Shown: positions 5,147 to 63,416 of the stretch, in pieces | Layout of the letters: each line of letters opens with the position of its first letter | Position numbering within the stretch: position 1 is the first letter of the stretch | Position numbers and translations under genes: made by a program | DNA from: Lacticaseibacillus mingshuiensis | Lineage (GTDB): Bacteria > Bacillota > Bacilli > Lactobacillales > Lactobacillaceae | Direction: 5' to 3' | DNA length: 64,000 nt | NCBI RefSeq assembly: GCF_016861785.1 | Contig: NZ_BOLS01000002.1 | Coordinates: 62,001-126,000, forward strand | Notes under the pieces: model-generated | Database searches by the model: none | The model's input: only the letters and a program-made list of their open reading frames with translations | What the model was told of the DNA's origin: nothing

Positions 5147-5268
5147 GGGTGCGGAGGTGCGCGTTTAGGGATGGGCAGCTAGCGCGGCCTGGGCGATCGA
5201 TGGCGCACCTTGCCATCGAACGACCGGGACGACTAGATGTCCCACCCCTGCGCACCGGAACCCGACTA
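5147..5268 (+). repeat. Intergenic palindromic repeat, array A copy 1
   Basis: First of three head-to-tail copies with a 127-bp period between sftA and ytpR. The whole unit folds into one hairpin. Outer arms GGTGCGC / GCGCACC pair, then the GGGATGGG and CCCACCCC arms, then an apical GATGGC / GCCATC stem around a short loop. It contains no convincing coding sequence. See findings for the family. Confidence 0.85.
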
Positions 5269-5273
5269 AAAAA

Positions 5274-5395
5274 GGGTGTGGAGGTGCGCGTTTAGGGGCG
5301 GGCAGCTAGTGCGGCCTGGGCGATCGATGGCGCACCTTGCCATCGAACGACCGGGACGACTAGATGTCCCACCCCTGCGTACCGGAACCCGACTA
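5274..5395 (+). repeat. Intergenic palindromic repeat, array A copy 2
   Basis: Nearly identical to copy 1, starting 127 bp later (a few substitutions in the arms). The high identity within array A, compared with the divergence between arrays, suggests a recent tandem duplication or gene conversion. Confidence 0.85.
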
Positions 5396-5400
5396 AAAAA

Positions 5401-5489
5401 GGGTGTGGAGGTGCGCGTTTAGGGGCGGGCAGCTAGTGCGGCCTGGGCGATCGATGGCGCACCTTGCCAACGAAAGACCGGGACGACTA
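5401..5489 (+). repeat. Intergenic palindromic repeat, array A copy 3 (3'-truncated)
   Basis: Third copy, 127 bp after copy 2. It stops after GGACGACTA, so the right outer arm is lost, and runs straight into the ytpR terminator. The apical stem also carries mismatches, as expected for a copy no longer able to form the full hairpin. Confidence 0.8.
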
Positions 5490-5530
5490 AAAAAGGAACC
5501 AAGACAAAACTGTTTGTCTCAGTTCCTTAA
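5490..5530 (-). terminator. Terminator of ytpR
   Basis: On the minus strand GGAACTGAGACAAA pairs with TTTGTCTTGGTTCC and is followed by six T. It directly abuts the truncated repeat copy. The rest of 5090-5582 is repeat array A, with no gene. Confidence 0.85.
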
Positions 5531-5582
5531 AAGGTCTTCTCATGATCGCATCCAGTCAGATGGATCGCGAACTTCGCTTCTG

Positions 5583-6221
5583 TTAGTTTGCTGCGGCCAC
5601 CACTTCAGCGGCAATGATCGGGTCGTATGGGGTCCCGGCCGGAATGTTGGCCGGCATCAACAAGATGCCCCGTGCGGCAGGTGCGCCTGGCACCGCCAAT
5701 TCGCGTGCCGCGCACAACATGCCGTAAGAATCGACACCGCGCAATTTACCCGGCCAGATGATCTTTCCATCCGGCATCATGGTGCCTGGCAGCGCTGCGA
5801 CGACTGTTTCGTTCAACGCGGCGTTGGGCGCCCCGCAAACGATCTGGCGGACGTTTCCATTGCCAAGGTCAACTTGGGTGATGTGCAGGTGGTCCGCATC
5901 CGGATGTGCTTCGATCGCGACGATCTTACCGATGACCAGCGTCGGCGCCTCATTCACGGGCAACACGCCTTCAAACCCAGCCGCTTCGAGCGCCTGGTTG
6001 AGGGTGGCCACATCCGCTTCACTGAGATGCACCTGGCCATCGCCGGTCAGCGCCGGCAGCCATTGTGAGACGTTGAAGAAATTGAAGCCAAGTGCCGCAC
6101 CGGCTTCGTCGAAAATGCCGACAATATCGCCTTTTTGCGTGGTAGTCTCAACGGCGCTGTCTTGCGCAAGCACGACGATCAAAGTGTCGCCCCACGCTTC
6201 CTTGTTCATGCTGGTGATCAA
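5583..6221 (-). CDS. ytpR: YtpR-like tRNA-binding domain protein
   Basis: A 212-aa protein with an N-terminal DUF4479-like part and a C-terminal EMAP-II/OB-fold tRNA-binding domain (about residues 92-200, VIGKIVAIEAHPDADHL onward) like that at the start of PheRS beta. Function is unknown beyond presumed RNA binding. I place the start at a TTG (6219-6221) because AGGAGG lies 7 nt upstream; the next in-frame ATG is 19 nt from that site. It sits with ytpP and sftA-murC as in B. subtilis, but the repeat array separates it from sftA. Confidence 0.88.
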   Translation of the reverse strand: MITSMNKEAWGDTLIVVLAQDSAVETTTQKGDIVGIFDEAGAALGFNFFNVSQWLPALTGDGQVHLSEADVATLNQALEAAGFEGVLPVNEAPTLVIGKIVAIEAHPDADHLHITQVDLGNGNVRQIVCGAPNAALNETVVAALPGTMMPDGKIIWPGKLRGVDSYGMLCAARELAVPGAPAARGILLMPANIPAGTPYDPIIAAEVVAAAN

Positions 6222-6246
6222 AATAGGACCTCCTGAGTGGTTAAAA

Positions 6247-6576
6247 TCAGATTGCGGCTGGCTGCAAGTTATTGATAAAGGCTTCGACTTCCGCCTTCGT
6301 CTTCCGGTCCTTGTTGACGAACCGGCCGATCTCCTTGCCATCTTCCAGCGCGATAAAACTTGGAATGCCCATCACACCCATGTCTTGGGCGATCTCGATA
6401 TTGTCATCGCGATCGACATAGATAAACGAGAACTCCGGATACTCCGCTTCGATTGCCGGCATTGCAGGCTTGATGAATTGGCAATCTGGGCACCAGTCAG
6501 CACTGAAGAACAGCATCTTCTTGCCAGGAGCCTTCGCTGCCTCCAAAATTGCCTCATTGCTATCGAATTTTTCCAT
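6247..6576 (-). CDS. ytpP: Thioredoxin-like protein YtpP
   Basis: A 109-aa thioredoxin-fold protein with the active-site pair in WCPDC (C29, C32) and a conserved cis-proline region MGIPSF. It probably acts in cytosolic thiol-disulfide exchange; the Asp in CPDC distinguishes it from housekeeping TrxA (CGPC). The start is the ATG 9 nt after AAAGGG; an upstream ATG overlaps the ribosome site. It probably forms an operon with ytpR, 25 nt downstream. Confidence 0.88.
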   Translation of the reverse strand: MEKFDSNEAILEAAKAPGKKMLFFSADWCPDCQFIKPAMPAIEAEYPEFSFIYVDRDDNIEIAQDMGVMGIPSFIALEDGKEIGRFVNKDRKTKAEVEAFINNLQPAAI

Positions 6577-6606
6577 GATCAACATCCCTTTCGCTTACAT
6601 TTGATA

Positions 6607-6640
6607 AGTATATTTTACACGTTTCCGGAGAAGATGCAAT
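6607..6640 (-). promoter_or_regulatory. Candidate promoter of ytpP-ytpR
   Basis: On the minus strand TTGCAT and TAAAAT are separated by 16 nt, about 30 nt upstream of the ytpP start. Position is approximate. Confidence 0.5.
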
Positions 6641-6717
6641 GCATTCTCCCTGCCTGCCGGTTATAATGAAACCAGTTTTGATTTTTGCCGCACGGCGGCG
6701 ATATTCGGAGGATTCTC

Positions 6718-7014
6718 ATGCGAAAAAATCAATGGTTGCTGATCGGCGCACTGGCCCCGCTGGCGGCGGGCGTGATTGCCGAAAGCGCGCGGCGCTATTA
6801 CTGGCACCATCTGTTGCCAAACCGGCTCTTCAAAGAGATGAAACAAGACGTTGCCACCACGCATACGGTGACTGGCGGCTGGATCGAGATGGCCCCCGTG
6901 GATCATGCCGATGGGACGATCTGGCAAGCGGCCTACCAAGGCGGTGTGACGACCGAAGATGGTGCCGTGATCAATTTTACAGTTAGTGCAACTGGGCAGC
7001 GCCTGGATCAGTAA
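6718..7014 (+). CDS. Small membrane-anchored protein, PepSY-like C-terminus
   Basis: A 98-aa protein with one N-terminal hydrophobic segment ([16 protein letters not shown]) followed by a polar domain ([11 protein letters not shown] ... [19 protein letters not shown]) that resembles the predicted small secreted/PepSY-like proteins of Firmicutes. GGAGG lies 7 nt before the ATG. A TATAAT at about 6662 is its likely -10. It converges on trmB and their 3' ends overlap by 32 bases. Function unknown. Confidence 0.75.
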
Positions 7015-7648
7015 ACCGCGCCGTCAGTTGATAAATAGCGCCACCTTTTTCACTGAACTTGTGCTCATATTCCGTCTCGACATTGTCAGGCAGCCGCGCA
7101 TCATTGTGCACGTCCACGCTGACAAGGTCAAACTGCATGCCGAAATTATTCATGCTGACCAGCGAATATTCAAACAGGCCACGGTTGTCGGTCTTGAACT
7201 GCAAGACCCCGGCCGCCTTTAAGATCGCGCGGTATTGAGCCAAAAATGTCTTGTAGGTCAGGCGGCGTTTCTCGTGCCGCGTTTTCGGCCAGGGATCGGA
7301 GAAATTCAGGAAAACGCCCGTGACCTCGCCTGGGGCAAAATAAGTCGTGAGATCGGCCCCATCCCCTAAGATCAATTGCAGGTTCGGCAGCTTCAGCGCG
7401 ACTTGTTTGCGCAGAATATAGCCGATCGCGGATTCTTGAATCTCCAGCGCAAGGAAATTCCGGTCGGGATGTTGCTGCGCCATTTCCGTGATAAAGGCAC
7501 CCTTCCCCGACCCGACTTCAAGATACAGCGGTTGATTTTTGGCAAAACGTTCCTGCCATTTGCCCGGCATGTTATCCGGGCGCGTTAAGATCTCATCAGG
7601 GTTCGCCGCGATCAGCGGAGCCGCCCATGGTTGGTTGCGTAAACGCAT
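6983..7648 (-). CDS. trmB: tRNA (guanine-N7-)-methyltransferase
   Basis: TrmB makes m7G46 in tRNA using SAM. The 221-aa protein has the SAM-binding motif EVGSGKG (residues 44-50), the [12 protein letters not shown] catalytic/tRNA-binding segment, and the typical MRLRNQPWA start. GAGGAG precedes the ATG at 7648; an ATG 15 nt upstream overlaps that ribosome site. It lies downstream of a YtmP-like kinase, as in Bacillus, with a strong hairpin between the two. Confidence 0.95.
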
Positions 7649-7665
7649 TACTTCTCTCCTCATAA

Positions 7666-7696
7666 AAGCACCGGTGCGACGTCCGCACCGGTGCTT
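7666..7696 (-). terminator. Hairpin between the YtmP-like gene and trmB
   Basis: A perfect 13-bp inverted repeat, AAGCACCGGTGCG / CGCACCGGTGCTT, with a 5-base loop. Only TTTTA follows on the minus strand, then the trmB ribosome site. It may partially terminate or process the transcript and so lower trmB expression relative to the upstream gene. Confidence 0.6.
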
Positions 7697-7699
7697 ATT

Positions 7700-8476
7700 T
7701 TAGTCTTGTTGATCAAGGACTTCTTGCATCTTGAGTAGCGCGGCATTCATTTCTGTGTAGCGCTGGGCGTCAAACATCCGCTGCGTTTCATCCAACAGAT
7801 GAAGCAAGCCATACCATTGCAGGCGGGTCGCGAGATCTGCGGTCAATTTCGTGCCATACGCGTCGAGCCATTCTTGCCACTGCGCGCGCGGCACATAATT
7901 GAACAAAACGACGGATAAGTCAAAAGCGGGATCGCCGAGCGACGCCTGATCCCAATCGACCAGATAAAGCCGCCCGCTGTCGGACAGCAGCCAGTTCTTA
8001 TGATTGAGGTCCCCGTGGCACACACGCAATTCGCGTTGCGGCGGCAACGTCATCAGCGCGGCAACAGCCTGTGCGACCACCGCGTGCTGCCGAAGCGTTG
8101 GCGCCAAATTCACCAACACACGCTCGCGCAGCGCAGGCAACGACTGGCCTTGACCACCGACTTTTTGAAGCATCCGGCGAAGCAGCACCGAATTATGGAC
8201 CTTGCCTAAAAGTTGCGCGACGATCGGCGAGCACATTTGCTCGCGCGTCATCGTTTTGCCATTGACCCAGTCTTGAGCCGTTAAAACATCACCGGTAGAA
8301 ATGCGTTTGGTCCAGATCAGCTTCGGGGTCACCCCTTCTACTGATAAGGCCGCCAAAAATGGGGACGCATTACGTTTTAAAAAGAATTTCTCGTGGGCAT
8401 AAACGCCCATAAATGCCCCACCGGTCGTGCCGCCAACTGGCTCTAGCGACCATCCGGGGTCTAAGTCAAAATTCAT
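7700..8476 (-). CDS. YtmP-like phosphotransferase (aminoglycoside/choline kinase fold)
   Basis: A 258-aa small-molecule kinase-fold protein. The catalytic loop CHGDLNHKNW (about residues 153-162) and the metal-binding VDWD motif (about 171) are intact. Its substrate is unknown; neighbourhood with trmB identifies it as the YtmP type rather than a resistance enzyme. I start it at the ATG at 8476 (MNFDLDPGW), which has a GGGAG upstream and gives the normal family length; the open frame extends 65 codons further without support. Confidence 0.85.
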   Translation of the reverse strand: MNFDLDPGWSLEPVGGTTGGAFMGVYAHEKFFLKRNASPFLAALSVEGVTPKLIWTKRISTGDVLTAQDWVNGKTMTREQMCSPIVAQLLGKVHNSVLLRRMLQKVGGQGQSLPALRERVLVNLAPTLRQHAVVAQAVAALMTLPPQRELRVCHGDLNHKNWLLSDSGRLYLVDWDQASLGDPAFDLSVVLFNYVPRAQWQEWLDAYGTKLTADLATRLQWYGLLHLLDETQRMFDAQRYTEMNAALLKMQEVLDQQD

Positions 8477-8569
8477 CTGCCAAAACTCCCATCCCAACGC
8501 ACCGATCTTCTGTGAGCTAAAATCAATATTACAAGCCGCCAGCCCTACCGTCAAGGCAATATTGAGGAA

Positions 8570-8690
8570 GGGTGCGGAGGCCCGCGGGATGGTGGAACAG
8601 CTAGGTCGGCTCAGGTACTTGGTGGCGGTCCTTGCCACCGAGTGCATGAGACGCCTAGATGTTTCCACCATGCGGGCCGGAGCCCTACTA
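8570..8690 (+). repeat. Intergenic palindromic repeat, array B copy 1
   Basis: Unit of the same family with different arms: ATGGTGGAA / TTTCCACCAT and GGCCCGCGGG / GCGGGCC pair, and the apical stem is GGTGGC / GCCACC. It lies between ecsB and the YtmP-like gene. The stretch 8477-8819 holds only the two repeat copies. Confidence 0.85.
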
Positions 8691-8692
8691 TC

Positions 8693-8810
8693 AGGTGCGG
8701 AGCGGGGCGCTTAGGTCTGAGCAGCTAGTTCGGCCTGAGCGGTTGATGGCGCACTGGGCCATCGACTGCTCAGGCCGACTAGATGCCCCAGAGCTGCCCC
8801 GCGAAAACGA
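8693..8810 (+). repeat. Intergenic palindromic repeat, array B copy 2
   Basis: Second copy, adjacent to copy 1 but with another arm type: GCGGGGC / GCCCCGC outside, GATGGC / GCCATC at the tip. Neighbouring copies within one array can therefore belong to different stem types. Confidence 0.8.
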
Positions 8811-8819
8811 AATTCCTGC

Positions 8820-10031
8820 CTACCTTGCGTCCAATTTTGCCAGCCGCAGCGGTAGATACCACAAGGCAAACACCACTGCCAGCGCCACGCCTGCCGCGAG
8901 GACCACGCCAACTTTGAGCCACGCCCCGCTGAGGGCTGCACCGACTGCCAAAATCACCGCCATCAATAGCAATAGGACCAGCACCAGCCGGCCAAACGAG
9001 GACTTTTTTTGCTTGAGCGACAACGGATACAGATGGGTGAAAACGATCTCGTCATATGCCAAGTAAAACGGCAACAGCTGGAAACCGACCAGGTAGACGA
9101 AAAGCAGGGCGAAGAGTCCGGCCAGCCACCACTGCTGGACAAAGGCTAAGATCGCCGCACCGATCACCGCTAAGCGCAAAAACAGGCCAAAAAATTCGGT
9201 TCGGCGCAGAAATCCGCGCACGTAGAGATAGGCCCAACTGCTGGCATAGCGTTTTGGCACCAGTTTTGTGAAGACATCCAGATATTTGCGGCGATGCACG
9301 CCGCCGCCGATCCCCGGCACGTCGGTGAAGAGATTGTAGAAGCGATAGATGCGGCCCATTCGCGCCGACTCGCGCTTGATCAGAAGTTGCCAATCGAGCT
9401 GGGCCGGCTGGAACCAATCGCCGATGCGCCAGCGAAGCAATAAGTCGCAGGCCAAGGCCACCGCCGTCGTGATCACCGGATGGATCCAGATGCCGGCCAT
9501 CAATCCGGCCCAGGCGACCAAGATCAATGCCGCCCGCGAAAGCCAAATTGGTAGATGCAACGTGTAATTGCCCAGCAATTGTAGCCACAGATCGACATCC
9601 TTGAACAACCACAGCGCAAGCAGAATCAACCCCAGCGACAACCAATCGCCGTGATGTAAGACGCCGAGCAGTGGCCAGGCCGCCAGCGTGGCGAGAAGCA
9701 AGGTCGCCAGTGGCAAAAGTGCGCTGTACCGCCGGGCCCGAAACAGGTAGCCGGCAAAATCGCTGGTGCGCGGCAACAGAAATGTCGCATCCGCCCCTTC
9801 CGCAAGCGTGGCCAGATCGCCAAGGCCAACGACCAACGCTAAAACAGCGGCCAGGGCCGGGGTGAACCACCATTGGGGCGTCAGATCATGGATCAGCTGA
9901 CTGTAGCCGTACAAGAGCGCGCCCAGCAGGATGATCAGGGCCAACACGAAATGGTCGTTGAAAACCAGCTGCAGATATTTGAATTGTTCTTTTGAGTGCC
10001 GCGCCAGCCGCGTTTTCCACAGCTTATTCAT
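8820..10031 (-). CDS. ecsB: ABC transporter permease EcsB
   Basis: A 403-aa polytopic membrane protein with about ten hydrophobic segments, matching EcsB in length and in its N-terminal soluble lead (LWKTRLARHSKEQFKYLQLVFNDHF). In B. subtilis EcsAB affects protein secretion, regulated membrane proteolysis and competence. Its ATG overlaps the ecsA stop by 8 nt, so the two are translationally coupled. Confidence 0.92.
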   Translation of the reverse strand: MNKLWKTRLARHSKEQFKYLQLVFNDHFVLALIILLGALLYGYSQLIHDLTPQWWFTPALAAVLALVVGLGDLATLAEGADATFLLPRTSDFAGYLFRARRYSALLPLATLLLATLAAWPLLGVLHHGDWLSLGLILLALWLFKDVDLWLQLLGNYTLHLPIWLSRAALILVAWAGLMAGIWIHPVITTAVALACDLLLRWRIGDWFQPAQLDWQLLIKRESARMGRIYRFYNLFTDVPGIGGGVHRRKYLDVFTKLVPKRYASSWAYLYVRGFLRRTEFFGLFLRLAVIGAAILAFVQQWWLAGLFALLFVYLVGFQLLPFYLAYDEIVFTHLYPLSLKQKKSSFGRLVLVLLLLMAVILAVGAALSGAWLKVGVVLAAGVALAVVFALWYLPLRLAKLDAR

Positions 10032-10761
10032 GCGCGGCCTCTTTCGTCATCGCCAAATAAATGTCGTCCAGCCGCCCTGCCGGCAGGTTGAACTGACGCT
10101 GCAAGCTGGTCAAGTCGCCAGTCGCCCGCACGCCGCCGTCTTTGAGCAGCACGAATTGATCCGCGACCTCTTCGGCGGTGTTCAAAATATGGGTCGACAT
10201 CAAAATGGCTGCCCCTGCCGCCCGTTTTTCCTCGACCAAGGCGAGTAAGTCATGGACGCCCAGCGGATCCAAGCCGGTGAAGGGCTCGTCGATCAAAAAC
10301 AACTTGGCATCCGTCATGAACGCGCAGACGATCATGACCTTCTGCTTCATCCCCTTGGAAAAATTATCCGGGAACCAGTCCAGTTTGTTGGCCAACCGGA
10401 ACGTCTCCAGCATCGCGTTCACCTTTGGCCAGGTCTGATCTTGATCGAGCTGATACGCCATCATGGTCAGCTCGAGGTGTTCCTTGAGCGTCAATTCCGG
10501 GTACAGGACCGGCGTTTCCGGCACATAGGCGATCGCCTGCCGATACGCATCGGGGTCGTCGGCCAGCGTTTTGTCGCCGATCGTGATCGCGCCGCTCATT
10601 GGCTTTAGGAGGCCGATGATATGTTTGATCGTCGTCGACTTGCCCGCGCCGTTCAAGCCGATCAAGGCAGTCACTTCGCCATCTGGGGCGGAAAAGTCCA
10701 GGTTTTTGATCACCGGCATGGCCCCGTAGCCGCCGGTGAGATGGTTGATCACTAAGCTCAT
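10024..10761 (-). CDS. ecsA: ABC transporter ATP-binding protein EcsA
   Basis: A 245-aa ATPase with Walker A GLNGAGKST (residues 35-43), a signature variant FSKGMKQ, and Walker B LFLIDEPFTGLD. It energises EcsB. The ATG at 10761 has GAGGT upstream; upstream in-frame codons lack one. It is divergent from hit, the same ecs/hit arrangement as in B. subtilis. Confidence 0.94.
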   Translation of the reverse strand: MSLVINHLTGGYGAMPVIKNLDFSAPDGEVTALIGLNGAGKSTTIKHIIGLLKPMSGAITIGDKTLADDPDAYRQAIAYVPETPVLYPELTLKEHLELTMMAYQLDQDQTWPKVNAMLETFRLANKLDWFPDNFSKGMKQKVMIVCAFMTDAKLFLIDEPFTGLDPLGVHDLLALVEEKRAAGAAILMSTHILNTAEEVADQFVLLKDGGVRATGDLTSLQRQFNLPAGRLDDIYLAMTKEAAHE

Positions 10762-12743: not shown

Positions 12744-12865
12744 GGGTGCGCAGCCGAGCGTTTAGGTCTGAGCGGATAGTCTGCCTTGGGTGCTTGAGGC
12801 GCACTTCGCCTCGAGTGCACAAGACAGCTAGACGTCTCAGACCTGCTTGGCGGAGCCCAACTGTA
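12744..12865 (+). repeat. Intergenic palindromic repeat, array C copy 1
   Basis: Arm type GCCGAGC / GCTTGGC and a perfect 9-bp AGGTCTGAG / CTCAGACCT, with apical GAGGCG / CGCCTC. It starts directly after the prsA terminator. Confidence 0.85.
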
Positions 12866-12988
12866 GGGTGCGCAGGCCCGTGGGATGGTGGAACAGTTAG
12901 GTCAGCTCAGGTGCTTGGTGGCGCCCCTTGCCACCGAGTGCATGAGCTGCCTAGATGTTTCCACCATGCGGGCCGGAGCCCAACTGTA
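12866..12988 (+). repeat. Intergenic palindromic repeat, array C copy 2
   Basis: Begins 122 bp after copy 1 but uses the ATGGTGGAA / TTTCCACCAT arms and GGTGGC / GCCACC tip found in array B copy 1. It retains the shared ends GGGTGCGCAG and GGAGCCCAACTG. Confidence 0.85.
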
Positions 12989-13011
12989 GGGTGCGCAGGC
13001 CCGCGGGATGG
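12989..13011 (+). repeat. Intergenic palindromic repeat, array C copy 3 (truncated)
   Basis: Only the left arm (GGGTGCGCAGGCCC to GGGATGG) remains. The missing right half is not found on the far side of the neighbouring IS element, so IS insertion alone does not explain the truncation. Confidence 0.75.
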
Positions 13012-13033
13012 CAGCCCTCAACTTGATTACACA

Positions 13034-13200
13034 GTGAACTACTCGGCCATAAATGACTGAGCTTCTGGGAACACCGCTGACTTACACATCCAGCATTGAG
13101 CCTTCTGTGCAGCGGTTACGGCTATTGACCAAGGCGCGTCCCGCGCCACAAACCCTATCAGGTTTTAAACTGTTTGTTGCTCAGCCGCCAAGATATTCTT
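13034..13200 (-). ncRNA. Putative TnpB guide (omega) RNA at the IS right end
   Basis: In IS200/IS605 elements the tnpB 3' end and right end encode the guide RNA scaffold, whose guide is the flank just outside the element. Here the region holds a GGCGCG / CGCGCC hairpin (13133-13147), a CCGCTG / CAGCGG stem (13074-13115) and the terminal hairpin. The guide would be the 16 or so bases left of 13034 read on the minus strand (TGTGTAATCAAGTTGA). Inferred from family knowledge and position; expression is not shown. Confidence 0.5.
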
Positions 13201-14313
13201 GGCGGCGTTAATATCACGATCATGGCGCGTGCCACACTGTGGACAGGTCCATTCGCGCACGTCTAGCGCGTGTTTTCCGTCGTCGTACCCGCAATTTGAA
13301 CAGCGTTGCGAGGTTTTGTATGGCGATACCGCCACAACTTGTTTACCATACCAGGCCGCCTTGTACTCAAGCATCAGGCGTAATTCTCGCCAGGACTGGT
13401 TCGCGATGGCACGAGCCAGCTTGTGATTATGCAGGAGGCCCTTGGTTTTCAGGTCTTCTAGCTTGATCAGGTCGTACTGGCGTATAAGAATCGTACTGAG
13501 CTTCTGTAGATAGTCGCGACGTTGGTTGGCTTCCTTCGCGCTGTATTTGGCCACCATGCGCTTAGCCTTCAGATAGTTTTTGAAGTCACTGAGTTGCCGC
13601 GGAGCTTCCACCTTAAGATGGTGGTCCCAGGCGATTTCCTTTTCGGCTTGTGCACGCCGGCGAGCCAGGCGTTTTTCCCAGTAGTGTTTTTTCTTGGCGT
13701 TAGCCTTGTCGAAACGTTTGGTGGGATACTTCATGCCGTCACTGGTGATGACCAGGTCCGCGACCCCCATGTCCAGTCCTACCGTAGCCTCGCTCTTCGG
13801 CCACAATTCTAGTTCAACTTCCGCAACCACTAGAACGTAATAATTGTCCACGCGGTCGCGCACCACTGTGGCAGTTTTGATTTTGCCAACTGGGCGCTGC
13901 CCTGTCCGGAACAGAATCGGGCCCAGCTTTGGCATGCGCAAATGGTTTGCATCGGTAAGCACAATATTGTCGTTGACCGCATTGGCCCGGTACGTTGGCT
14001 TAGCAAAGCGCCGGGCTTTGAACTTAGGGTACCCGGCATGCTTCTTGAACAGATTCTGAAACGCTAAGTGCAGGTTGTGACTGACCGCAATCAGGCTAGT
14101 CGCATCGGCTTCTTTGAGCCATGGATATTGCTGTTTGAGTGGCTTGATCAGGTAGTTCATCTGGAACTCATTGACGTACTTGCCACCATTATTGTGGCGT
14201 TGAATTTGCATGTTGAGTAGTTCGTTCCACACGAAGCGGCACATACCGAAGTTACGTTCAATCTGTTGGCGCTGCGTTGCGTTCGGATAGATGCGTAGCT
14301 TGAAGCTCTTCAT
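13165..14313 (-). CDS. tnpB: TnpB RNA-guided endonuclease (OrfB, IS605 type)
   Basis: A 382-aa TnpB, ancestor-like relative of Cas12. The RuvC catalytic residues appear intact: Asp in VGLDMGVADL, Glu in IKLEDLKTKG and Asp in HDRDINAAKNIL. The four-cysteine zinc finger (CSNCGYDD ... WTCPQCG) is also intact, and no frameshift is seen. The start is the ATG at 14313; a TTG two codons upstream is possible. It overlaps the tnpA end by 56 bases in another frame. Full length suggests an active or recently active nuclease. Confidence 0.93.
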   Translation of the reverse strand: MKSFKLRIYPNATQRQQIERNFGMCRFVWNELLNMQIQRHNNGGKYVNEFQMNYLIKPLKQQYPWLKEADATSLIAVSHNLHLAFQNLFKKHAGYPKFKARRFAKPTYRANAVNDNIVLTDANHLRMPKLGPILFRTGQRPVGKIKTATVVRDRVDNYYVLVVAEVELELWPKSEATVGLDMGVADLVITSDGMKYPTKRFDKANAKKKHYWEKRLARRRAQAEKEIAWDHHLKVEAPRQLSDFKNYLKAKRMVAKYSAKEANQRRDYLQKLSTILIRQYDLIKLEDLKTKGLLHNHKLARAIANQSWRELRLMLEYKAAWYGKQVVAVSPYKTSQRCSNCGYDDGKHALDVREWTCPQCGTRHDRDINAAKNILAAEQQTV

Positions 14314-14752
14314 TGTCAATTATCTGCACCGCCTTACTCCGTTGATCATCAATGTATTTAGCAACAGCCTCCTGGTTCGTTGTTCCGATACTCTCGACGT
14401 AGTAGCTGGGTGACCACAGGTGACGCCCCTGGTGTTTCCAATAGCTTCGTTGAAGTTCGGGACACGCAACGAACATTTGACGAGCCGAAATACCCTTCAA
14501 CCACCGAACGATGTTAGTCACCGACAATTTCGGCGGTGCACTCACTAACAAGTGAACGTGGTCATCCTTACCAATCTCCATATGGTCGATACTGAACCCA
14601 TATTGTGCGGCGACCTCATAGAGGATTCGCTTAAGCACAGCTTCGACGTTTCCTTTCAGAACGCGGTTTCGGTATTTAGTGCCCCAAATGAGGTGGTAAT
14701 TGAGATTATAGACAGATGTTCTACCATACGTTACACGATTTGTCTCCTTCAT
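14258..14752 (-). CDS. tnpA: IS200/IS605 Y1 transposase TnpA
   Basis: A 164-aa HUH-type single-strand transposase. The metal-binding HVH is in DDHVHLLVSAPP and the catalytic Tyr lies in the YYVESIG helix. It is slightly longer than typical TnpA (130-155 aa) because of the N-terminal stretch MKETNRVTYGRTS. The ribosome site is weak. It looks intact, so with tnpB the element may be autonomous. Confidence 0.92.
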   Translation of the reverse strand: MKETNRVTYGRTSVYNLNYHLIWGTKYRNRVLKGNVEAVLKRILYEVAAQYGFSIDHMEIGKDDHVHLLVSAPPKLSVTNIVRWLKGISARQMFVACPELQRSYWKHQGRHLWSPSYYVESIGTTNQEAVAKYIDDQRSKAVQIIDNEELQATHLSERNAAPTD

Positions 14753-19526: not shown

Positions 19527-19582
19527 TCGAATCTGGCGGGCATTCACAGCCTAGTTGGGACTCAGTGCGCACCGCCGCACCC

Positions 19583-21768: not shown

Positions 21769-21950
21769 AAAAAAACCCGTCCCTTTTCCATTTGAAAAAG
21801 AGACGAGTTGCCCCGCGGTACCACTCTTGTTGACTGAACGTCCACTCAATATGAAATTCCTTCTCAAAAGCGCGCCACCGCCGTCCGCCAGCCGCTCGCA
21901 CCCCCGCGGCCTCACTGAAAACAGACAAACGATCTCCTCTTCGTCAATGA
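21769..21950 (-). promoter_or_regulatory. T-box riboswitch of argS-argR
   Basis: The minus strand has the T-box sequence AGAGTGGTACCGCGGGG (revcomp of 21811-21827). Upstream is a GC-rich stem I region that begins GACGAAGAGGAGA and contains AGTGAGG. Downstream is an attenuator hairpin CGTCTCTTTTTC / GGAAAAGGGACG plus T-run (21769-21805), just before the argS ribosome site. Uncharged tRNA-Arg would stabilise the antiterminator. I could not fix the specifier codon with confidence. Confidence 0.9.
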
Positions 21951-21964
21951 AGGTTGTTAATATC

Positions 21965-21995: not shown

Positions 21996-22066
21996 AGCGG
22001 TCGACGAGAATCGAACTCGCGACACCAGCTTGGGAAGCTGGAGTTTTACCACTAAACTACGACCGC
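21996..22066 (-). tRNA. tRNA-Gly (anticodon CCC)
   Basis: A 71-nt cloverleaf on the minus strand. Acceptor GCGGTCG / CGACCGC, anticodon stem CCAGC / GCTGG around loop TTCCCAA (anticodon CCC), and T-arm GCGAG-TTCGATT-CTCGT all fit. CCA is not encoded. It is transcribed alone from its own promoter. Confidence 0.95.
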
Positions 22067-22122: not shown

Positions 22123-22242
22123 CGGTGCGCAGGCCCGTGGGATGGTGGGGCGGCTAACTTGGCTCGGGCGCGCGAGGCGCACTTCGCCTCGAGTGCACGA
22201 GACAGTTAGACGTCCCCACCATGCGGGCCGGAGCCCAAGTAT
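22123..22242 (+). repeat. Intergenic palindromic repeat, array D copy 1
   Basis: Arms GGCCCGTGGGATGGTGGGG / CCCCACCATGCGGGCC, with apical GAGGCG / CGCCTC. It lies just upstream of the tRNA-Gly promoter. Confidence 0.85.
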
Positions 22243-22361
22243 GGGTGCGGCGCGGGGCGCTTAGGGGGTGGGCAGCTAAGTCCAGCAGACGCGTGAGGCG
22301 CTCTTTGCCTCGGGCGGCTGATGGCTTAGATGTCCCACCCCTGCCCCGCGAAGCCCGACTA
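22243..22361 (+). repeat. Intergenic palindromic repeat, array D copy 2
   Basis: Arms GCGGGGC / GCCCCGC and GGGTGGGC / GTCCCACCC, with apical GAGGCG / TGCCTC. It differs in arm type from copy 1. Confidence 0.85.
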
Positions 22362-22393
22362 GGGTGCGGCGGCCCGTGGGATGGTGGGGCGGC
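22362..22393 (+). repeat. Intergenic palindromic repeat, array D copy 3 (truncated)
   Basis: Only the left arm up to GGTGGGGCGGC remains. The stretch 22394-22513 that follows shows nothing recognisable. Confidence 0.75.
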
Positions 22394-22513
22394 GAAGTCG
22401 GCGAAAAGTCCTGGTGCCCACCTCACTTCAGACAAACAACCGCGCAATTAGCCACGAAGACCCTCATGCAAAATGTTCGACCAGCTTTAAATTATGAGAA
22501 AGGTCAAATTTTC

Positions 22514-27320: not shown

Positions 27321-27451
27321 GACCACTGCACCTCACTTTGTTATGCGTCATAAACGCCATCGTGTGTCTGTAATCATTATACCAGATTACTAACTTCCGG
27401 ATAGTCTACCGCAATCACCATCAAAACGCAAACAGGACGCATCGGACGGAT

Positions 27452-27515
27452 GCCGAGTGCGCAGGGGTGGGCCGGCCAACTACCTGTCCCACCCTTGCTC
27501 GGCGGAGCTCAACTA
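27452..27515 (+). repeat. Intergenic palindromic repeat, array E copy 1 (internally deleted)
   Basis: A miniature unit keeping only GCCGAG / CTCGGC and GGGTGGG / CCCACCC arms plus the GGAGCTCAACTA end. The apical half is missing, yet the remaining arms still pair. Confidence 0.6.
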
Positions 27516-27520: not shown

Positions 27521-27641
27521 AGGTGCGCAGCGGGGCAGCTAGTTCTGAGCGGATAGCTTGGCTCGTACGCTTGAGGGACACTTCGCCGCGAGTGCACGAG
27601 ACAGCTTGGCGTCTCATGCCTTCCCCGCGAAGCCCAACTGT
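27521..27641 (+). repeat. Intergenic palindromic repeat, array E copy 2
   Basis: Arms GCGGGG / CCCCGC and TTCTGAG / CTCAT, a more degenerate tip (GAGGGACACTTCGCCGC), and the shared end AGCCCAACTG. Bases 27321-27706 hold only these repeats and the spx terminator. Confidence 0.75.
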
Positions 27642-58411: not shown

Positions 58412-58480
58412 AAAAGATCCTTTCAAAAGCGGTCGTGACGGACAGCGCTGCGACTTACATCCGAAACCCTTCTTTTCATC

Positions 58481-58506
58481 AAAAAAGTCCCGGACACTCC
58501 GAGACC
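58481..58506 (-). terminator. Terminator of the CorC/HlyC-family gene
   Basis: GTCTCGGA / TCCGGGAC stem with a 3-base loop and six T on the minus strand. Confidence 0.8.
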
Positions 58507-58551
58507 AAGTCTTGTTCCATTATAAGGAAGAACCGACGCGACTTCAATCGA

Positions 58552-59901
58552 TCATTCTTCTGATTTGCTGGTCGGCTCAGCGGAAGCCGGCTGACTGAGG
58601 TGCACATGCACATTGATCATCCGCGAGCCGTCCATTTTGCCCGTGGTCAACGTACTGCCGCCTGGCAATGGCAGCGATTCCTGCTGGCGGTTCGTCGGAA
58701 TTTTGCCCAATTGGGTGATCACGTACCCCGCCAGCGTGTCGACATCATCGGCTTCCAGCGTCATGTGAAAATAGGCATTGAACTCGCTGATCGGCATCTT
58801 GCCAGCCACCAGATAATCATCGGCATCGAGCTTCGTGACCATCACAGTGGCCTGGTCGCTTTCGTCATCGATATCGCCAACGACCTCCTCGATCAGGTCC
58901 TCGATCGTGACGACGCCGACCACGCCGCCGTATTCATCGAGCAAGATCGCCATTTGTTGCTGGCGGATGCGCATCTCGGTCAACAGATCATCCACCGTCA
59001 ACGTTTCGGGGACAAACAATGGGTCAGTCATGACATCTTCAAGCCGTACCTGCTCAAACCCGACGCGGCGCGCCTCTTTGAGCAGATTTTTGATATGCAC
59101 GATACCGATGACATTATCCTTATCGCCTTGATAGACGGGAATCCGCGAATAAATGTTGTCCAGAATCGCGTCGATCGCCGTCGCATCAGGCGCATCCGCA
59201 TCGACCATGAAGGCATCGATTCGCGGCACCATCACCTCGCGCGCCATTTTGCTGGTCAGCGAGATCACACCTTCGAACATTTCGTACTCGTCGTCTTCCA
59301 GCGCCCCACTTTGACGGCCCTGCTCGATCATCGACACCATTTCATCACGGGTGACCTGATCTTGTTTCTTGGAAAAATCGATCGGGGTCAGCTTCATCAA
59401 CAGGTTTGTCGATGCCGACAGCAACCACACGAACGGCCGCATCAAAACAGACAGCCAGCTGATCGGCGTGACTGCCGCCTTGGCGACTTTTTCCTTCATT
59501 TGAAGCGCGACCTGCTTCGGATATAACTCCCCAAATACCAGCGACAGATAGGACAGGATGATCGTCACCAAGAGCACCGCGGCCTCATGGGCCCAGCTCA
59601 AGTTGCCAAACAATGGCTCGACATAACCCGCCAAGGTCGTGGCCGCGCTGGCCGATGCAAAGAAGCCAGCAAACGTGATGCCCACCTGAATCGTGGCCAA
59701 AAAGTTGGTCGAGTTCGCCATGATCGCGGTGAGCTTCCCCGCCTTTTTATCGCCGGCCTTCGCCTGCGCCGCCATTTTGTCTTTCGACAACGACACCACC
59801 GCGATCTCCGCGGCCGCAAAGCAGGCGTTGATCAACGTCAACACCACGATCAAGATCAGTTGGGGCCATATCGCACCACTGGCGCCTTCTGCCATCACCA
59901 T
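58552..59901 (-). CDS. CNNM/CorC-type (hemolysin-like) membrane transporter with CBS pair
   Basis: A 449-aa protein. An N-terminal DUF21/CNNM membrane domain of four helices (about 10-190) is followed by two CBS domains (about 215-340) and a CorC_HlyC C-terminal domain (ESLPLPGGSTLTTGKMDG split). The family includes magnesium/cobalt exporters; 'hemolysin' is historical. The ATG at 59901 follows AAAGG by 5 nt; another in-frame ATG lies two codons on. Confidence 0.9.
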   Translation of the reverse strand: MVMAEGASGAIWPQLILIVVLTLINACFAAAEIAVVSLSKDKMAAQAKAGDKKAGKLTAIMANSTNFLATIQVGITFAGFFASASAATTLAGYVEPLFGNLSWAHEAAVLLVTIILSYLSLVFGELYPKQVALQMKEKVAKAAVTPISWLSVLMRPFVWLLSASTNLLMKLTPIDFSKKQDQVTRDEMVSMIEQGRQSGALEDDEYEMFEGVISLTSKMAREVMVPRIDAFMVDADAPDATAIDAILDNIYSRIPVYQGDKDNVIGIVHIKNLLKEARRVGFEQVRLEDVMTDPLFVPETLTVDDLLTEMRIRQQQMAILLDEYGGVVGVVTIEDLIEEVVGDIDDESDQATVMVTKLDADDYLVAGKMPISEFNAYFHMTLEADDVDTLAGYVITQLGKIPTNRQQESLPLPGGSTLTTGKMDGSRMINVHVHLSQPASAEPTSKSEE

Positions 59902-59965
59902 CCACACCTTTCAAAATTGGGCACTCTGCCCATGTTGTTCTACTATCTTGAGGCCTGACCATCCC

Positions 59966-60007
59966 GCCGACCTAGCTGTTCCACCATCCCGCGCACCTAC
60001 GCACCCT
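59966..60007 (-). repeat. Intergenic palindromic repeat, array F copy 2 (truncated)
   Basis: On the minus strand the left arm only (AGGGTGCGTAGGTGCGCGGG to CTAGGTCGGC split). It follows F copy 1 head to tail and loses its right half, like the last copies of arrays A, C and D. Confidence 0.75.
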
Positions 60008-60010
60008 TTG

Positions 60011-60134
60011 TAGTTGGGCTTCGGCCCGCATGGTGGAAGCAGCTAGTCGTTCCAGTCGCCCGATGGCAAAATACGCCATAAACCGCCCAGGCCGAACTAT
60101 CTGCTCAGACCTAAACGCTCGGCTACGCACCCTG
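60011..60134 (-). repeat. Intergenic palindromic repeat, array F copy 1 (chimeric)
   Basis: On the minus strand the left arm is of array C copy 1 type (GCCGAGCGTTTAGGTCTGAG), but the right arm is of array B copy 1 type (TTCCACCATGCGGGCC), so the outer arms do not pair. The apical ATGGCG / GCCAT stem still does. Lies between the AI-2E gene and the CorC-like gene. Confidence 0.8.
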
Positions 60135-60159
60135 TATTTGTCCAGTATACCACGCCACT

Positions 60160-61299
60160 TCACGGTTTGGGCTTTGAGTTCGGGAGGGTGCCGGTCAAGG
60201 CCGCGGTGCGTTTTTGGTCCTGGTGAAAATGGTAGAGCTCAAGCGCATAGGTCACAACTGTTTTGATCACCGCATAGGCAGGTACCACTAAGATGGTTCC
60301 AAGCAAGCCCCATAAGTTACCGGCGACCAGCAACAAGATAATGATCGTCATCGGATGGATGTCCAACGACCGCCCGATCACATTCGGATAGATCACGTTA
60401 CCGTCGACCTGCTGCACGATGATCACCACGACGATCGTCAACGCGACCTCCGTCCAGCTGCGGGTCACGGCTACCAATAGTGCCGGCGCAATGCCAATGT
60501 ACGGGCCAATGTAAGGAATCAAGGTCACGATGCCGGCAAAAAATCCCAGCAAAAACGCGTATGGCATCCCGATGATCAGATAGCCGATAAACGTGAAGGT
60601 CCCAACGAACAAACATTCAATGACCTGACCCGCGATGTAATGCGACAACGTGGCATTCATCCGGTGAAAAACGCCAGCGATCTCATCGCCATAACGCGCT
60701 GGCAGCAATTTTTGCACCGCGGGCACGAACCGGTCGCCATCCTTCAGCATGTAAAACAGAAGCACCGGAATCGTGATCAACGTGATCACCACGCCAACAA
60801 CGGATCCGACCACACTGGGCAGGCCGCTGGAAAAATTGCCGAGCAGACTGGTCAGAATCTTCGCCGGATCGACTTTGATATTGGCGACCATGCTGGCGAT
60901 GCCGAATTGCTGATACCATTTATAATGAGACAACTGAGTCAGCTCTTGGCGAATGAATTTGACAAAATCCGGTAGTCCCGCGACCAGCTGGGTGATCTGG
61001 GTGATCAGATTGGGAATGATGGCTGCGATCGTGAAGACAGCCAGTGCCACCACCACCGCAAAAACAAGCAGGATGCCCCAGCCGCGCCGAATGTGCAATT
61101 TTTCCAGTAAAGTGATCAGCGGGTTGAACAGATAATACATAAAGCCCGCGGTCAAAAGCGGCACCATCAGCGTTGAAAAAAATGTCGCGATCGGTGCAAA
61201 CAAAAACGACAGATTTGTGAGTCCAATTACTAAGAAGACCAGAATAAGGGCTTCAAGTGACCAAAAGAGCAGTTTCGATCGGCGCAATTTTTCAAACAT
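60160..61299 (-). CDS. AI-2E family transporter
   Basis: A 379-aa polytopic protein of the AI-2E (UPF0118/PerM) family, with about eight helices and the conserved PYIGPYIG segment. Members export small molecules or ions; AI-2 itself is not assured. AGGAGG lies 7 nt before the ATG at 61299. The frame extends further upstream without support. Confidence 0.9.
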   Translation of the reverse strand: MFEKLRRSKLLFWSLEALILVFLVIGLTNLSFLFAPIATFFSTLMVPLLTAGFMYYLFNPLITLLEKLHIRRGWGILLVFAVVVALAVFTIAAIIPNLITQITQLVAGLPDFVKFIRQELTQLSHYKWYQQFGIASMVANIKVDPAKILTSLLGNFSSGLPSVVGSVVGVVITLITIPVLLFYMLKDGDRFVPAVQKLLPARYGDEIAGVFHRMNATLSHYIAGQVIECLFVGTFTFIGYLIIGMPYAFLLGFFAGIVTLIPYIGPYIGIAPALLVAVTRSWTEVALTIVVVIIVQQVDGNVIYPNVIGRSLDIHPMTIIILLLVAGNLWGLLGTILVVPAYAVIKTVVTYALELYHFHQDQKRTAALTGTLPNSKPKP

Positions 61300-61431
61300 A
61301 ACGCGTCCTCCTTGGCGGGTGAGAGTCGGCTGCCTGTCCCGATCGACAGCCATTGTTAGCCGTGGTCCCGCCATGTCAACTCAGTGCTATAATAACAGAA
61401 ATAAGACCGAAACGTGAAAGCTGTGACCACT

Positions 61432-61869
61432 ATGACCATTGAAGTGACAAAAGATCTGACCAGTACCACCTACCAAGATGCACTTGCGATTCGTACCACC
61501 GTCTTTGTCGAGGAACAAAACGTCCCGGCAGACCTGGAAGTCGACAGCGAGGAAGCCCGCGCCATCTATTTTGTGGCGTATGACCAAGGGCTCGCCTTGG
61601 GCACCGCGCGCTTGCTCAAAGAAGGCTATGGCTATCATGTGCAGCGCGTGGCTGTGCTCAAAGCTTATCGTCATCATGGAATCGGTGCCCAGTTACTTGA
61701 CGCGATCGTGGACTATGCCCAGGCGCATGACGCGGGTGAATTGCGGCTTGGCGCCCAGCTGACCGCAGTTGGTTTTTACAAGGGGCTGGGTTTTCATCTG
61801 ACAGAAAAACCTGAGTTCTTGGATGCCGGCATTCGGCATCGCGAAATGGCCCTGAATCTGACCGATTGA
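61432..61869 (+). CDS. GNAT family acetyltransferase (ElaA-like)
   Basis: A 145-aa N-acetyltransferase. The acetyl-CoA loop is in VQRVAVLKAYRHHGIGAQLL, and TTVFVEEQNVPADLEVD is typical of ElaA-type members. TATAAT at 61388-61393 is a likely -10. The start is uncertain because no strong ribosome site is seen; a GTG at 61414 is possible. Confidence 0.85.
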   Translation: MTIEVTKDLTSTTYQDALAIRTTVFVEEQNVPADLEVDSEEARAIYFVAYDQGLALGTARLLKEGYGYHVQRVAVLKAYRHHGIGAQLLDAIVDYAQAHDAGELRLGAQLTAVGFYKGLGFHLTEKPEFLDAGIRHREMALNLTD

Positions 61870-61968
61870 TCGCGGCGTAAGCGACCCCCAGCGGTTCCGT
61901 TCGGGCGCCTGCCTCGCTGGCCGCGAAGAACATGCTATAATGAACGCAATACAATTAGGAGGTGCGCC

Positions 61969-62460
61969 ATGGGCAATGGCAAGGCTACCTTGATCTTCAC
62001 CTTTTTCTTTGGTATTCCCTATCTGTGCGCACAGCTGATGATCGGCATCGCCTACAACGCGTTGGTGCTGCATGCCGACAGTATCTGGCGGACGGCGGTC
62101 GGCGCGATCGTCGGCGCGACCATCATCTATTTTGCTAAGATTCCGCTGGAACGTCCGCTGCGCATCCTCGGCAAATACACGACCATTCAATTCATCCACT
62201 TGGCGGTACGCTTTTTCATGTTGCAGGAAGCCAAGCTGTGGAAGATCATCTTGAATTATCTGCTGGATCTGACGGTGGCCTTTGCCGCCATCGACCTGGT
62301 CCGCGTCCTCTTCCCAACTCCCGAAGCACACGCCTTCATCATTGGCACCCCATTTGGCTGGGTGCTGGCTCTGATGGTCGTGTCGCTGTGCATCGGTGCC
62401 TATATGGATCTGGATGCCATGTCGCTCGTACCGACGATGAAAAAAATGCGGAATCTATAG
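61969..62460 (+). CDS. Four-helix membrane protein, unknown
   Basis: A 163-aa protein with four hydrophobic helices (about 7-30, 43-57, 90-112, 126-147) and a basic tail (TMKKMRNL). AGGAGG lies 6 nt before the ATG. No family recognised. The following spacer, 62461-62863, holds decayed gene fragments. Confidence 0.75.
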   Translation: MGNGKATLIFTFFFGIPYLCAQLMIGIAYNALVLHADSIWRTAVGAIVGATIIYFAKIPLERPLRILGKYTTIQFIHLAVRFFMLQEAKLWKIILNYLLDLTVAFAAIDLVRVLFPTPEAHAFIIGTPFGWVLALMVVSLCIGAYMDLDAMSLVPTMKKMRNL

Positions 62461-62540
62461 CTGCTGAAGCGAGCACCCCGACTGTGATGTGAATTTGATA
62501 GACGAATTTGTACGGAATGAAAACGCTAAGTCGTCCACTT

Positions 62541-62580
62541 TTTTGACAATCGGTGGTCCGATCGGCTCGGGCAAAATTCG
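62541..62580 (+). pseudogene. Possible deoxynucleoside kinase N-terminal remnant
   Basis: Translates as FLTIGGPIGSGKIRV, close to the P-loop start of lactobacillar deoxynucleoside kinases (VLSGPIGAGKSSL). Nothing of the rest of the enzyme follows. Short; could be chance. Confidence 0.35.
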
Positions 62581-62610
62581 AGTGTCCAGACGATTGGGGG
62601 TCACCGCGGA

Positions 62611-62858
62611 CTGCAGTGCCTGCTACACGGCCTCAACGTCAGCGCCAATCAACGCGTGACGATGGGCAAATCTGCGCAACAAACTGAGCGGGTGGTGTCG
62701 CAATGCAGCCAGCTATATCGATAGTGGCAATCTGCTTTTCATTACCGGGCTGGAAAAGTTCAGTGATCTGATTGCAAGCCGTTCTGCCCGTTTATCAGCA
62801 GCCGACACCGTAACCCCACATTTGCTTGCAAAGCTCGCCCAAAGCGCATGGAGGAATA
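62611..62858 (+). pseudogene. DUF1697 protein remnant, frameshifted
   Basis: Two frames carry pieces in the right order. First LLHGLNVSANQRVTMGKS from 62620, like the DUF1697 start LLRGINVGG. Then, one frame over, NAASYIDSGNLLFITGLEKF from about 62701, like its NSGNVLF motif. Deletions join them. The fragment runs into the ribosome site of the next gene. Confidence 0.6.
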
Positions 62859-62863
62859 AGCCG

Positions 62864-63283
62864 ATGCAGATCAGATCAATGACTGAGAATGACGAGCCTG
62901 AACTAGCACGCATCTACTTAACAAGCCGTCAAGCAACGTTTACATGGATGGCGCAGGCAGACTTCAAGCGCAGCGATTTCCAACACGACACGCTCGACGA
63001 GGAAGTGCTGGTTGCAACGATCGACCGGTGCATCCTCGGATTCGTCAGCACTTACCAACCCGACAACTTCATTCATCTATTATTCGTCGATCCGCAATGC
63101 TTTGGTCACGGAATCGGCAAGCAACTACTCACGACAGCACTGACCCATACAGGACGTCCAGCCCGTCTCAAGTGTCTAAGCGCCAATTACCGTGCACGCG
63201 AATTTTACCGGCGCAATGGCTGGGTGACGGAAAGCGAAAACACCACACCGCCCGCCTATTTGAATTTGGTTTACGGCGCTTAA
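62864..63283 (+). CDS. GNAT family acetyltransferase
   Basis: A 139-aa N-acetyltransferase with the acetyl-CoA loop VDPQCFGHGIGKQLL and the C-terminal NYRAREFYRRNGW. GGAGG lies 10 nt before the ATG at 62864. The upstream in-frame extension belongs to the DUF1697 remnant. Substrate unknown. Confidence 0.87.
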   Translation: MQIRSMTENDEPELARIYLTSRQATFTWMAQADFKRSDFQHDTLDEEVLVATIDRCILGFVSTYQPDNFIHLLFVDPQCFGHGIGKQLLTTALTHTGRPARLKCLSANYRAREFYRRNGWVTESENTTPPAYLNLVYGA

Positions 63284-63386
63284 TTCAAAAATTTCCGAAT
63301 CAGGTTCCGGTCTGAATGGAGGAAACATATCAATGTCCCAGTCACTTTGGGGATAAGCGGCCCCGAGCGCCTAGGGCATGTTATCG

Positions 63387-63416
63387 GTTCCACCATTCCG
63401 CGGACCTGCACACCCT
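63387..63416 (-). repeat. Intergenic palindromic repeat fragment G
   Basis: Left arm only on the minus strand (GGGTGTGCAGGTCCGCGG, then AATGGTGGAAC). It is a truncated solitary unit between convergent genes. Confidence 0.65.

Follow-up and report, generated by a model that had tools for sequence, protein, structure and literature searches.

A family of extragenic hairpin units with covarying stems, arranged in polarised arrays, in Lacticaseibacillus mingshuiensis and other Lactobacillaceae

In a 64-kb stretch of the 2.76-Mb genome of Lacticaseibacillus mingshuiensis (G000:C2:62001-126000; hereafter the window, meaning the whole stretch that was analysed), we found a family of intergenic units of about 115-124 nt that fold into a single long hairpin built on a fixed skeleton, while the letters of their stems vary widely and pairing holds. 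The description of this family is secure, and the family has apparently gone undescribed until now. We tentatively interpret the unit as a non-autonomous extragenic hairpin element, found almost only in Lactobacillaceae, whose fold is under selection and whose arrays are extended in a polarised manner. The nearest named relative of the source genome is Lacticaseibacillus yichunensis, and the EcsB protein encoded in the window is 98% identical to the homologue of L. yichunensis 33-1.

Read from the 5' end towards the tip, the skeleton consists of a short foot stem, an outer stem with some 7 pairs, a 5'-side stretch that is unpaired and usually ends in TTAG, and a middle stem. Further in come a TAG/CTA segment and a long tip stem in which wobbles recur, capped by a short loop that frequently contains CTTTG. 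The tip-stem wobbles recur at fixed places, with T-G at 52:72 in 130 of 148 rows from L. mingshuiensis and G-T at 49:75 in 114. Units in the window have the ends GGGTGCGGAG...GGAGCCCAACT, and in many other genera the ends read GAG-N-GC...GC-N-CG-TTT; units of other genera have the skeleton in common, but not the stem sequences. Among 273 copies from L. mingshuiensis and L. yichunensis, median pairwise identity was 0.69. In L. mingshuiensis, outer stem types occur in numerous combinations with middle stem types (adjusted mutual information 0.27), and every type is accompanied by the arm that matches it: Watson-Crick cells made up 93% of the outer stem within a unit, versus 63% when a 5' arm was combined with the 3' arm of another unit.

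That the stems covary between copies had been proposed in the initial annotation of this DNA and is borne out by several data sets. Copies were oriented, 32 of them were aligned and folded, and a covariance model, R1, was then built; in this alignment 25 of 42 pairs showed double-sided change. Among the 150 best-scoring copies of the L. mingshuiensis genome, picked by a structure-aware score, 97.5% of stem cells were paired, compared with 81.6 ± 0.3% after shuffling (0 of 500 shuffles as high) and 31-39% in slid controls, and double-sided change occurred at 34 of 42 pairs. Similar values were obtained for 18 further genomes of the genus, represented by 45 distinct rows (91.2% paired, double-sided change at 39 of 42 pairs) and for 30 rows from 20 genomes (91.9% paired, 33 of 36 pairs, all four Watson-Crick types at many of them), 22 rows of the latter set coming from 14 genomes of 7 other genera. 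The alignments of the 150-copy, 45-row and 30-row sets were fitted to a model, and such fitting favours pairing. For 191 distinct L. mingshuiensis copies that were selected and aligned by sequence alone, within stretches picked for their model matches, the 7184 cells comprised 6115 Watson-Crick, 759 G-U, 114 A-C and 196 other cells. Finally, we compared a MAFFT alignment of 44 sequences with a phylogenetic null, using a G-test with average-product correction on column pairs at least 4 apart. The null comprised 8 simulated sets, for which a custom script (not R-scape) placed the parsimony substitutions anew on a FastTree tree; for recombining repeats such a tree is an approximation only. Eighteen column pairs lay above all 59,048 null values, and 18 of these 18 belonged to the 36 stem pairs; the remaining 18 stem pairs were at or below the null maximum.

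Covariation of this kind could mean that the fold is selected or that both arms are made at once, and the initial annotation had left the choice between the two open. Because asymmetric loops and wobbles are conserved, we favour selection. The other explanation, which we consider unlikely, is mutation without selection, in which template switching from arm to arm (quasipalindrome correction), a known mutational mechanism described in part of PMC8794818, would rematch the arms after each mutation. It would agree with the use of all four Watson-Crick types and with isolated double changes, of which there were 4 in 26 orthologous unit pairs between L. mingshuiensis and L. yichunensis; we further counted 48 single and 6 two-pair runs among 77 pairs of close paralogs that have members in common. 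Template switching should, however, also remove the asymmetric internal loop and the recurrent wobbles, both of which persist across the genus. Moreover, in the 26 orthologous pairs 62 pair states had changed on one side versus 5 on both; the one-sided changes comprised 26 between Watson-Crick and G-U, 19 between Watson-Crick and A-C, 13 between Watson-Crick and other states and 4 between mispairs. The extensive compensatory change within single genomes makes selection on shape versus template switching between arms directly testable in food bacteria.

In the window, R1 gave 11 full-length unit-strand matches (62.7-138 bits, E 6e-29 to 6e-12), and together with a sequence hidden Markov model (HMM) and a scan for right-end partials it detected 5 partial copies besides, distributed over seven intergenic spaces. 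This is the count that the initial annotation had reached, and its arm types, its coordinates and its guess at Lactobacillaceae were right as well; its unit list differs from ours in detail, as 8693-8813 has lost its normal 3' end, 63298-63415 is degenerate and 60012-60132 is chimeric. An eighth intergenic space holds a remnant. The units are as follows.

5147-5267, plus strand: full hairpin unit with outer stem GGTGCGC:GCGCACC (R1, 114.8 bits)
5274-5394, plus strand: full hairpin unit, near copy of the 5147 unit (R1, 118.8 bits)
5401-5490, plus strand: 3'-truncated unit at the array end (sequence HMM, model positions 1-89)
8570-8689, plus strand: full hairpin unit (R1, 138 bits)
8693-8813, plus strand: hairpin unit that has lost its normal 3' end (R1, 94.7 bits; sequence)
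12744-12862, plus strand: full hairpin unit (R1, 113.9 bits)
12866-12985, plus strand: full hairpin unit (R1, 134.3 bits)
12989-13014, plus strand: terminal 5' partial unit (right-end partial scan)
19553-19582, minus strand: unit remnant with the interior deleted; L. yichunensis has a full unit at the matching place (genome comparison)
22123-22240, plus strand: full hairpin unit (R1, 119.6 bits)
22243-22360, plus strand: full hairpin unit (R1, 91.2 bits)
22362-22402, plus strand: terminal 5' partial unit (right-end partial scan)
27444-27514, plus strand: unit lacking most of its interior through an internal deletion (R1, 28.7 bits)
27521-27639, plus strand: full hairpin unit (R1, 86.2 bits)
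59966-60005, minus strand: terminal 5' partial unit (sequence HMM, model positions 2-41)
60012-60132, minus strand: chimeric unit with two arm types (R1, 80.1 bits; sequence)
63298-63415, minus strand: degenerate full-length unit (R1, 62.7 bits)

In the chimeric unit, the 5' arm (CCGAGC/AGGTCTGAG) and the 3' arm (TTCCACCAT/GCGGGCC) are of different types, and by eye the outer and middle stems are unpaired; it resembles a recombinant of two tandem units. The unit at 12744-12862 directly follows a terminator-like hairpin and T run, which lie 3' of a PPIase gene.

The unit is directional, as 8570-8689 scored 138 bits with R1 in the forward direction versus 42.6 on the other strand, and within arrays this direction is kept. 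In the L. mingshuiensis genome, 98 sites hold 1-4 of the 150 listed units and none is of mixed orientation; likewise, no adjacent opposite units were seen in 121 arrays of G027 and 112 arrays of G005, two further genomes of the genus. Scanning 546 kb of the L. mingshuiensis genome yielded 107 arrays, 69 of them with at least two hits when partials are counted. Units follow one another head to tail, and spacers of up to 12 nt (129 in 80 arrays) measure 1-8 nt and were identical within one array in about half of 73 comparisons. The two ends of the arrays differ. At the right end, a 5' partial (score at least 14, start near unit position 1, within 10 nt, in arrays with enough flank) was present in 84 of 136 arrays, 63 of 102 in L. 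mingshuiensis and 21 of 34 in L. yichunensis, and in none of the shuffled flanks; 78 of these 84 partials reach no further than model position 60, near the tip. At the left end, a 3' partial was found in 1 of 136 arrays, namely the deleted unit at 27444. In 26 arrays from other species or genera, which were viewed and not counted, a right-end partial was visible in some and not in others.

Half-units of this kind might arise if a reverse transcriptase copied the element via RNA and stopped short within the hairpin, and the precise left end and the stop within the first arm would fit a polymerase halting in a hairpin. The domain RVT_1, present in 14 of 46 genomes searched, was nevertheless not found in L. 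mingshuiensis, L. yichunensis, G001, G006 or G011, all of which bear units, and we consider this route highly improbable. Improbable too, if somewhat less so, is a REP-like element that is moved by a Y1 transposase (IS200/IS605 or RAYT) acting on the single-stranded hairpin. Its working would be similar, with a strand-specific hairpin, conserved irregularities and an extragenic habit, and a tnpA-tnpB pair of the IS200/IS605 type (13165-14716, minus strand; TnpB at 13165-14319, Y1 TnpA match at about 14342-14716) adjoins the right end of the 12.7-kb array; it is absent from the matching place in L. yichunensis. A link to RAYT had been suggested in the initial annotation, and testing it through the Y1_Tnp family revealed none: within the genus, 13 of 30 genomes have Y1_Tnp and eleven that bear units yielded no match (G001, G004, G005, G006, G007, G011, G014, G017, G022, G024 and G027), and in other genera it was present in 11 of 20 unit-rich genomes versus 7 of 20 without a detected unit. 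We therefore rejected both the Y1 transposase and the reverse transcriptase as a required mover, as neither correlates with the units.

A possible, though rather doubtful, alternative is that the unit is a structured RNA which acts when transcribed, for instance as a small RNA or as a hairpin that serves as a 3' end or in processing, so that it is the RNA stem that is selected. Covariation, recurrent wobble pairs and conserved loops are typical of RNA, and units frequently begin a few nucleotides past a stop codon (when a gene reads towards an array, the array starts a median of 6-7 nt past the stop as placed by a crude open-reading-frame caller). The ratio of G-U to A-C cells outside wobble-rich pairs was 18:7 where both flanking genes run along the unit, compared with 29:24 where both are opposed to it, which is the direction predicted for RNA, but this contrast was not significant (p 0.22). 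Also at odds with an RNA is the presence of all four gene orientations, with no clear bias among them (++ 21, +- 29, -+ 19, -- 33), and the outer and middle stems, which vary freely, contain few G-U pairs; furthermore, more than 100 copies of unlike sequence would be unusual for a single RNA. With the origin assumed at position 1, orientation was not significantly biased between chromosome halves either (p 0.10 in G027, 1.0 in G005).

Comparison with L. yichunensis showed that array sites outlast about 7% divergence, whereas unit number and type do not. Units or remnants were present in both genomes at 26 of 26 flank-matched sites, with full units in both at 23, the L. yichunensis stretches having been chosen in part around units. 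Where one stretch was compared contiguously (105 kb aligned at 92.8% identity), L. mingshuiensis had a counterpart array for 8 of the 9 arrays of L. yichunensis and, for the ninth, an internally deleted remnant. Unit number was equal at 9 of the 23 sites with full units in both genomes. An orthologue of at least 0.90 identity existed for 28 of 43 L. mingshuiensis units, and 12 of the other 15 had a better match in another L. yichunensis array; at sites 25 and 83, a single unit had been swapped between unchanged flanks. Of 215 units that have array mates, 157 were closest to a unit of a different array. We accordingly rejected pure local tandem duplication as the whole story, since only 58 of 215 units were nearest to one from their own array. 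The ends of units follow the site (identity 0.894 versus 0.830 among units with unlike interiors, in pairs that are not independent). As would fit growth on the left, leftmost units were conserved in 14 of 30 cases and rightmost units in 23 of 30 at the 0.90 threshold, and in 82 arrays the unit with a closer relative elsewhere was the leftmost in 49 and the rightmost in 31 (p 0.045). Neighbouring units with identical or near-identical scores at L096:1501-1748 and G021:C19:18585-19065 suggest recent local duplication.

Recent losses look like deletions of the hairpin. Five aligned L. paracasei plasmid records carry one unit, two units plus a remnant, or a remnant alone, and in a P. acidilactici plasmid record the interior of the unit is deleted; at the phosphotransferase system (PTS) site of an L. 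plantarum plasmid all of the unit but roughly its final 13 nt is missing, which may reflect either deletion or an older state. Over longer times, we looked at the conserved ecsB neighbourhood in 19 other genomes of the genus with a broad model, R2, built from 44 sequences of 19 genomes. R2 units were present in 8 of the stretches, and those of G001, G002, G004, G007, G008, G009, G011, G013, G020, G023 and G028 had none. The space between aph and ecsB holds units in L. mingshuiensis, L. yichunensis, G027 and G022, and the space by o5758, on the ftsK side, does so in L. mingshuiensis, L. yichunensis and G014 (whose list is without ftsK); the other unit sites near ecsB are lineage-specific. Since sites in the ecsB region differ between genomes, they appear to have been gained and lost across the genus, with no gain directly seen.

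Taken as a selected, polarised element, the likeliest of the readings weighed at somewhat less than even odds, the unit might work as follows. A copying or maintenance process would recognise the folded strand through the conserved loops and wobbles, and selection would act on shape because that process recognises the folded strand. New units, whether copied from a neighbouring unit or from elsewhere, would join in the orientation of a resident unit at a place marked by the 5' end of that resident, and the 5' partial on the right would be the leftover of an old unit. If copying switches template within the conserved ends, unit ends would be expected to follow the site more than the interior does. 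Host replication and recombination alone may suffice, with no dedicated enzyme. The polarised arrays also offer a natural record of unit turnover. A bolder and unlikely version is a shape-addressed cassette system, in which unit addition by the resident 5' end is polarised and orientation-specific, interiors are traded while site-specific ends stay, and folding is the sole requirement on the traded part; were it true, inheritance of such a genomic element would go by structure and not by sequence.

Several observations weigh against a selected fold with polarised addition. Likeness of the spacers to the left flank is modest (2.03 nt versus 1.39 nt shuffled), and 52 of 136 arrays are without a right-end partial by the criterion used. 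The 58 units whose nearest relative is an array mate indicate that local duplication occurs too. The signal of leftward growth is weak (Fisher p 0.03, 0.06, 0.03 and 0.80 at identity thresholds of 0.85, 0.88, 0.90 and 0.92), and rightmost units were not significantly more mispaired (p 0.20). Among presence/absence differences we saw no de novo insertion, all being deletions or one plasmid site of ambiguous direction. Outside the wobble-rich pairs, G-U mildly exceeds A-C (139:109 in the 191 copies, 108:67 in four gene contexts), which is indecisive between DNA and RNA. In orthologous pairs, the prevalence of one-sided over compensated changes given above counts in the same direction. These pairs differ at 65 of 1911 stem positions (3.4%) versus 64 of 749 positions in unpaired columns (8.5%), and the stem value is close to that of the left flanks (86 of 2291, 3.8%; 90-nt flanks, those below 75% identity dropped), so that constraint in place is not proven. 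The idea that resident copies are unselected, suggested by the few compensated changes, was dropped, as the contrast between stem and loop spoke against it and the flank rate was indecisive.

A covariance-model search of this genome and other Lactobacillaceae, as the initial annotation had proposed, found the family widely. The L. mingshuiensis genome holds at least 150 R1 matches (all of the best 150 of 1518 candidates scored), a floor that leaves the window units 8693, 22243 and 27521 outside the list. The sequence-only HMM, run on 61 stretches of 492 kb in total (the window and 60 regions around R1 matches), detected at least 193 copies covering more than 100 of 120 HMM positions and 17 shorter ones. 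With R2, at least 148 units were found in G027 and at least 130 in G005 (best 150 of 683 and of 527 candidates scored, respectively). Of 60 genomes searched with R1, 20 had matches, every one of them among the 30 genomes from the genus; R2 matches occurred in at least 91 of 301 Lactobacillaceae genomes and 16 of 40 genera, again a floor given strict filters and 11 candidates scored per genome. In an order-wide sample, 9 of 246 genomes had R2 matches, 7 from Lactobacillaceae and 2 from other families; the latter carry units at G433:C1:981457-981819 and G476:C49:31860-31975, where transfer is possible. Window-type units had no match in plasmids, phages or E. coli. The G005-type unit was present in 15 plasmid records, 9 from Pediococcus and 6 from Lacticaseibacillus, and the plasmid units, in L. 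paracasei, L. rhamnosus and Pediococcus, have no listed feature beneath them in the PLSDB gene table, which is incomplete. A family with such copy numbers in two further genomes of the genus, and present on plasmids, has seemingly escaped description so far.

At the gathering threshold, Rfam recognised only a tRNA in the window and no unit, and searches with the units down to E<3 gave merely chance-like mir-306 matches below threshold. Nor did we find a recognised description of the family in the open-access literature, the scope of our search; one may be in print among subscription papers and preprints. The initial annotation had likewise not recognised the repeat as BOX, RUP or REP. Integron attC sites are recognised by shape as a folded single strand, have variable stem letters and form directional arrays, and they carry core boxes with gene cassettes between sites. 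The hairpin units would work alike in shape recognition, variable stems and directional arrays; unlike attC, they lie 1-8 nt apart with no cassette genes between them, and by eye their ends are without attC boxes in attC order, on which grounds we set membership aside. CRISPR arrays consist of identical repeats and unique spacers of similar length, whereas here the units themselves vary and the spacers measure 1-8 nt. For a miniature inverted-repeat element of a DDE insertion sequence, one would expect the terminal inverted repeats of a resident insertion sequence and a target duplication of constant length; the spacers, the part compared here, measure 1-8 nt and partly resemble the left flank. 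ERIC, BOX and RUP are single-consensus families; here, by contrast, a genome has many pairing arm types, copies are as unlike as noted above and the fold spans 16 genera. These and other stem-loop families are likewise mostly intergenic, with a common fold and tens to hundreds of copies, according to part of PMC2267715, in whose survey tables the only Lactobacillus is L. johnsonii, with one genic family, Lac-1.

REPIN or REP-BIME elements with their RAYTs are likewise extragenic, of high copy number, hairpin-forming and clustered, and in the portions of PMC3116915 and PMC8266576 that bear on them REPINs are inverted doublets that keep a conserved REP sequence at both ends and are linked to RAYT genes. 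For REPIN hairpins, compensatory changes were reported to be common and a single-stranded intermediate was discussed (Bertels and Rainey 2011, PMC3116915, in part). The present units differ in that nearly all stem letters vary, that arrays run head to tail and bear a 5' partial at one end, and that the family is not tracked by any Y1 gene. Nor is the GTAG tag at the foot of REP hairpins conserved here: in 107 arrays, GTA precedes the first unit in 5, compared with AAA in 25, TCA in 12, TAA in 10, ACA in 9, GAA in 8 and ATA in 7. Mitochondrial mobile hairpins (GC clusters, double-hairpin elements and the sponge RHE) are likewise intergenic and often tandem, and two sponge types differ by few complementary substitutions (PMC2800124); they belong to other genomes, and part of PMC2800124 describes no skeleton common to many genera.

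Two minor observations concern the surroundings of units and of the window. Among plasmids L209, L210 and L211, a unit lies inside a mannose-family PTS operon, between IIC and IIB, in L. paracasei and Pediococcus inopinatus, but an L. plantarum plasmid lacks nearly all of it. In the window, a T-box leader match below threshold (21796-21956, minus strand; 58.3 bits, gathering 93) is situated at the argS start and adjoins the tRNA gene at 21996-22066.

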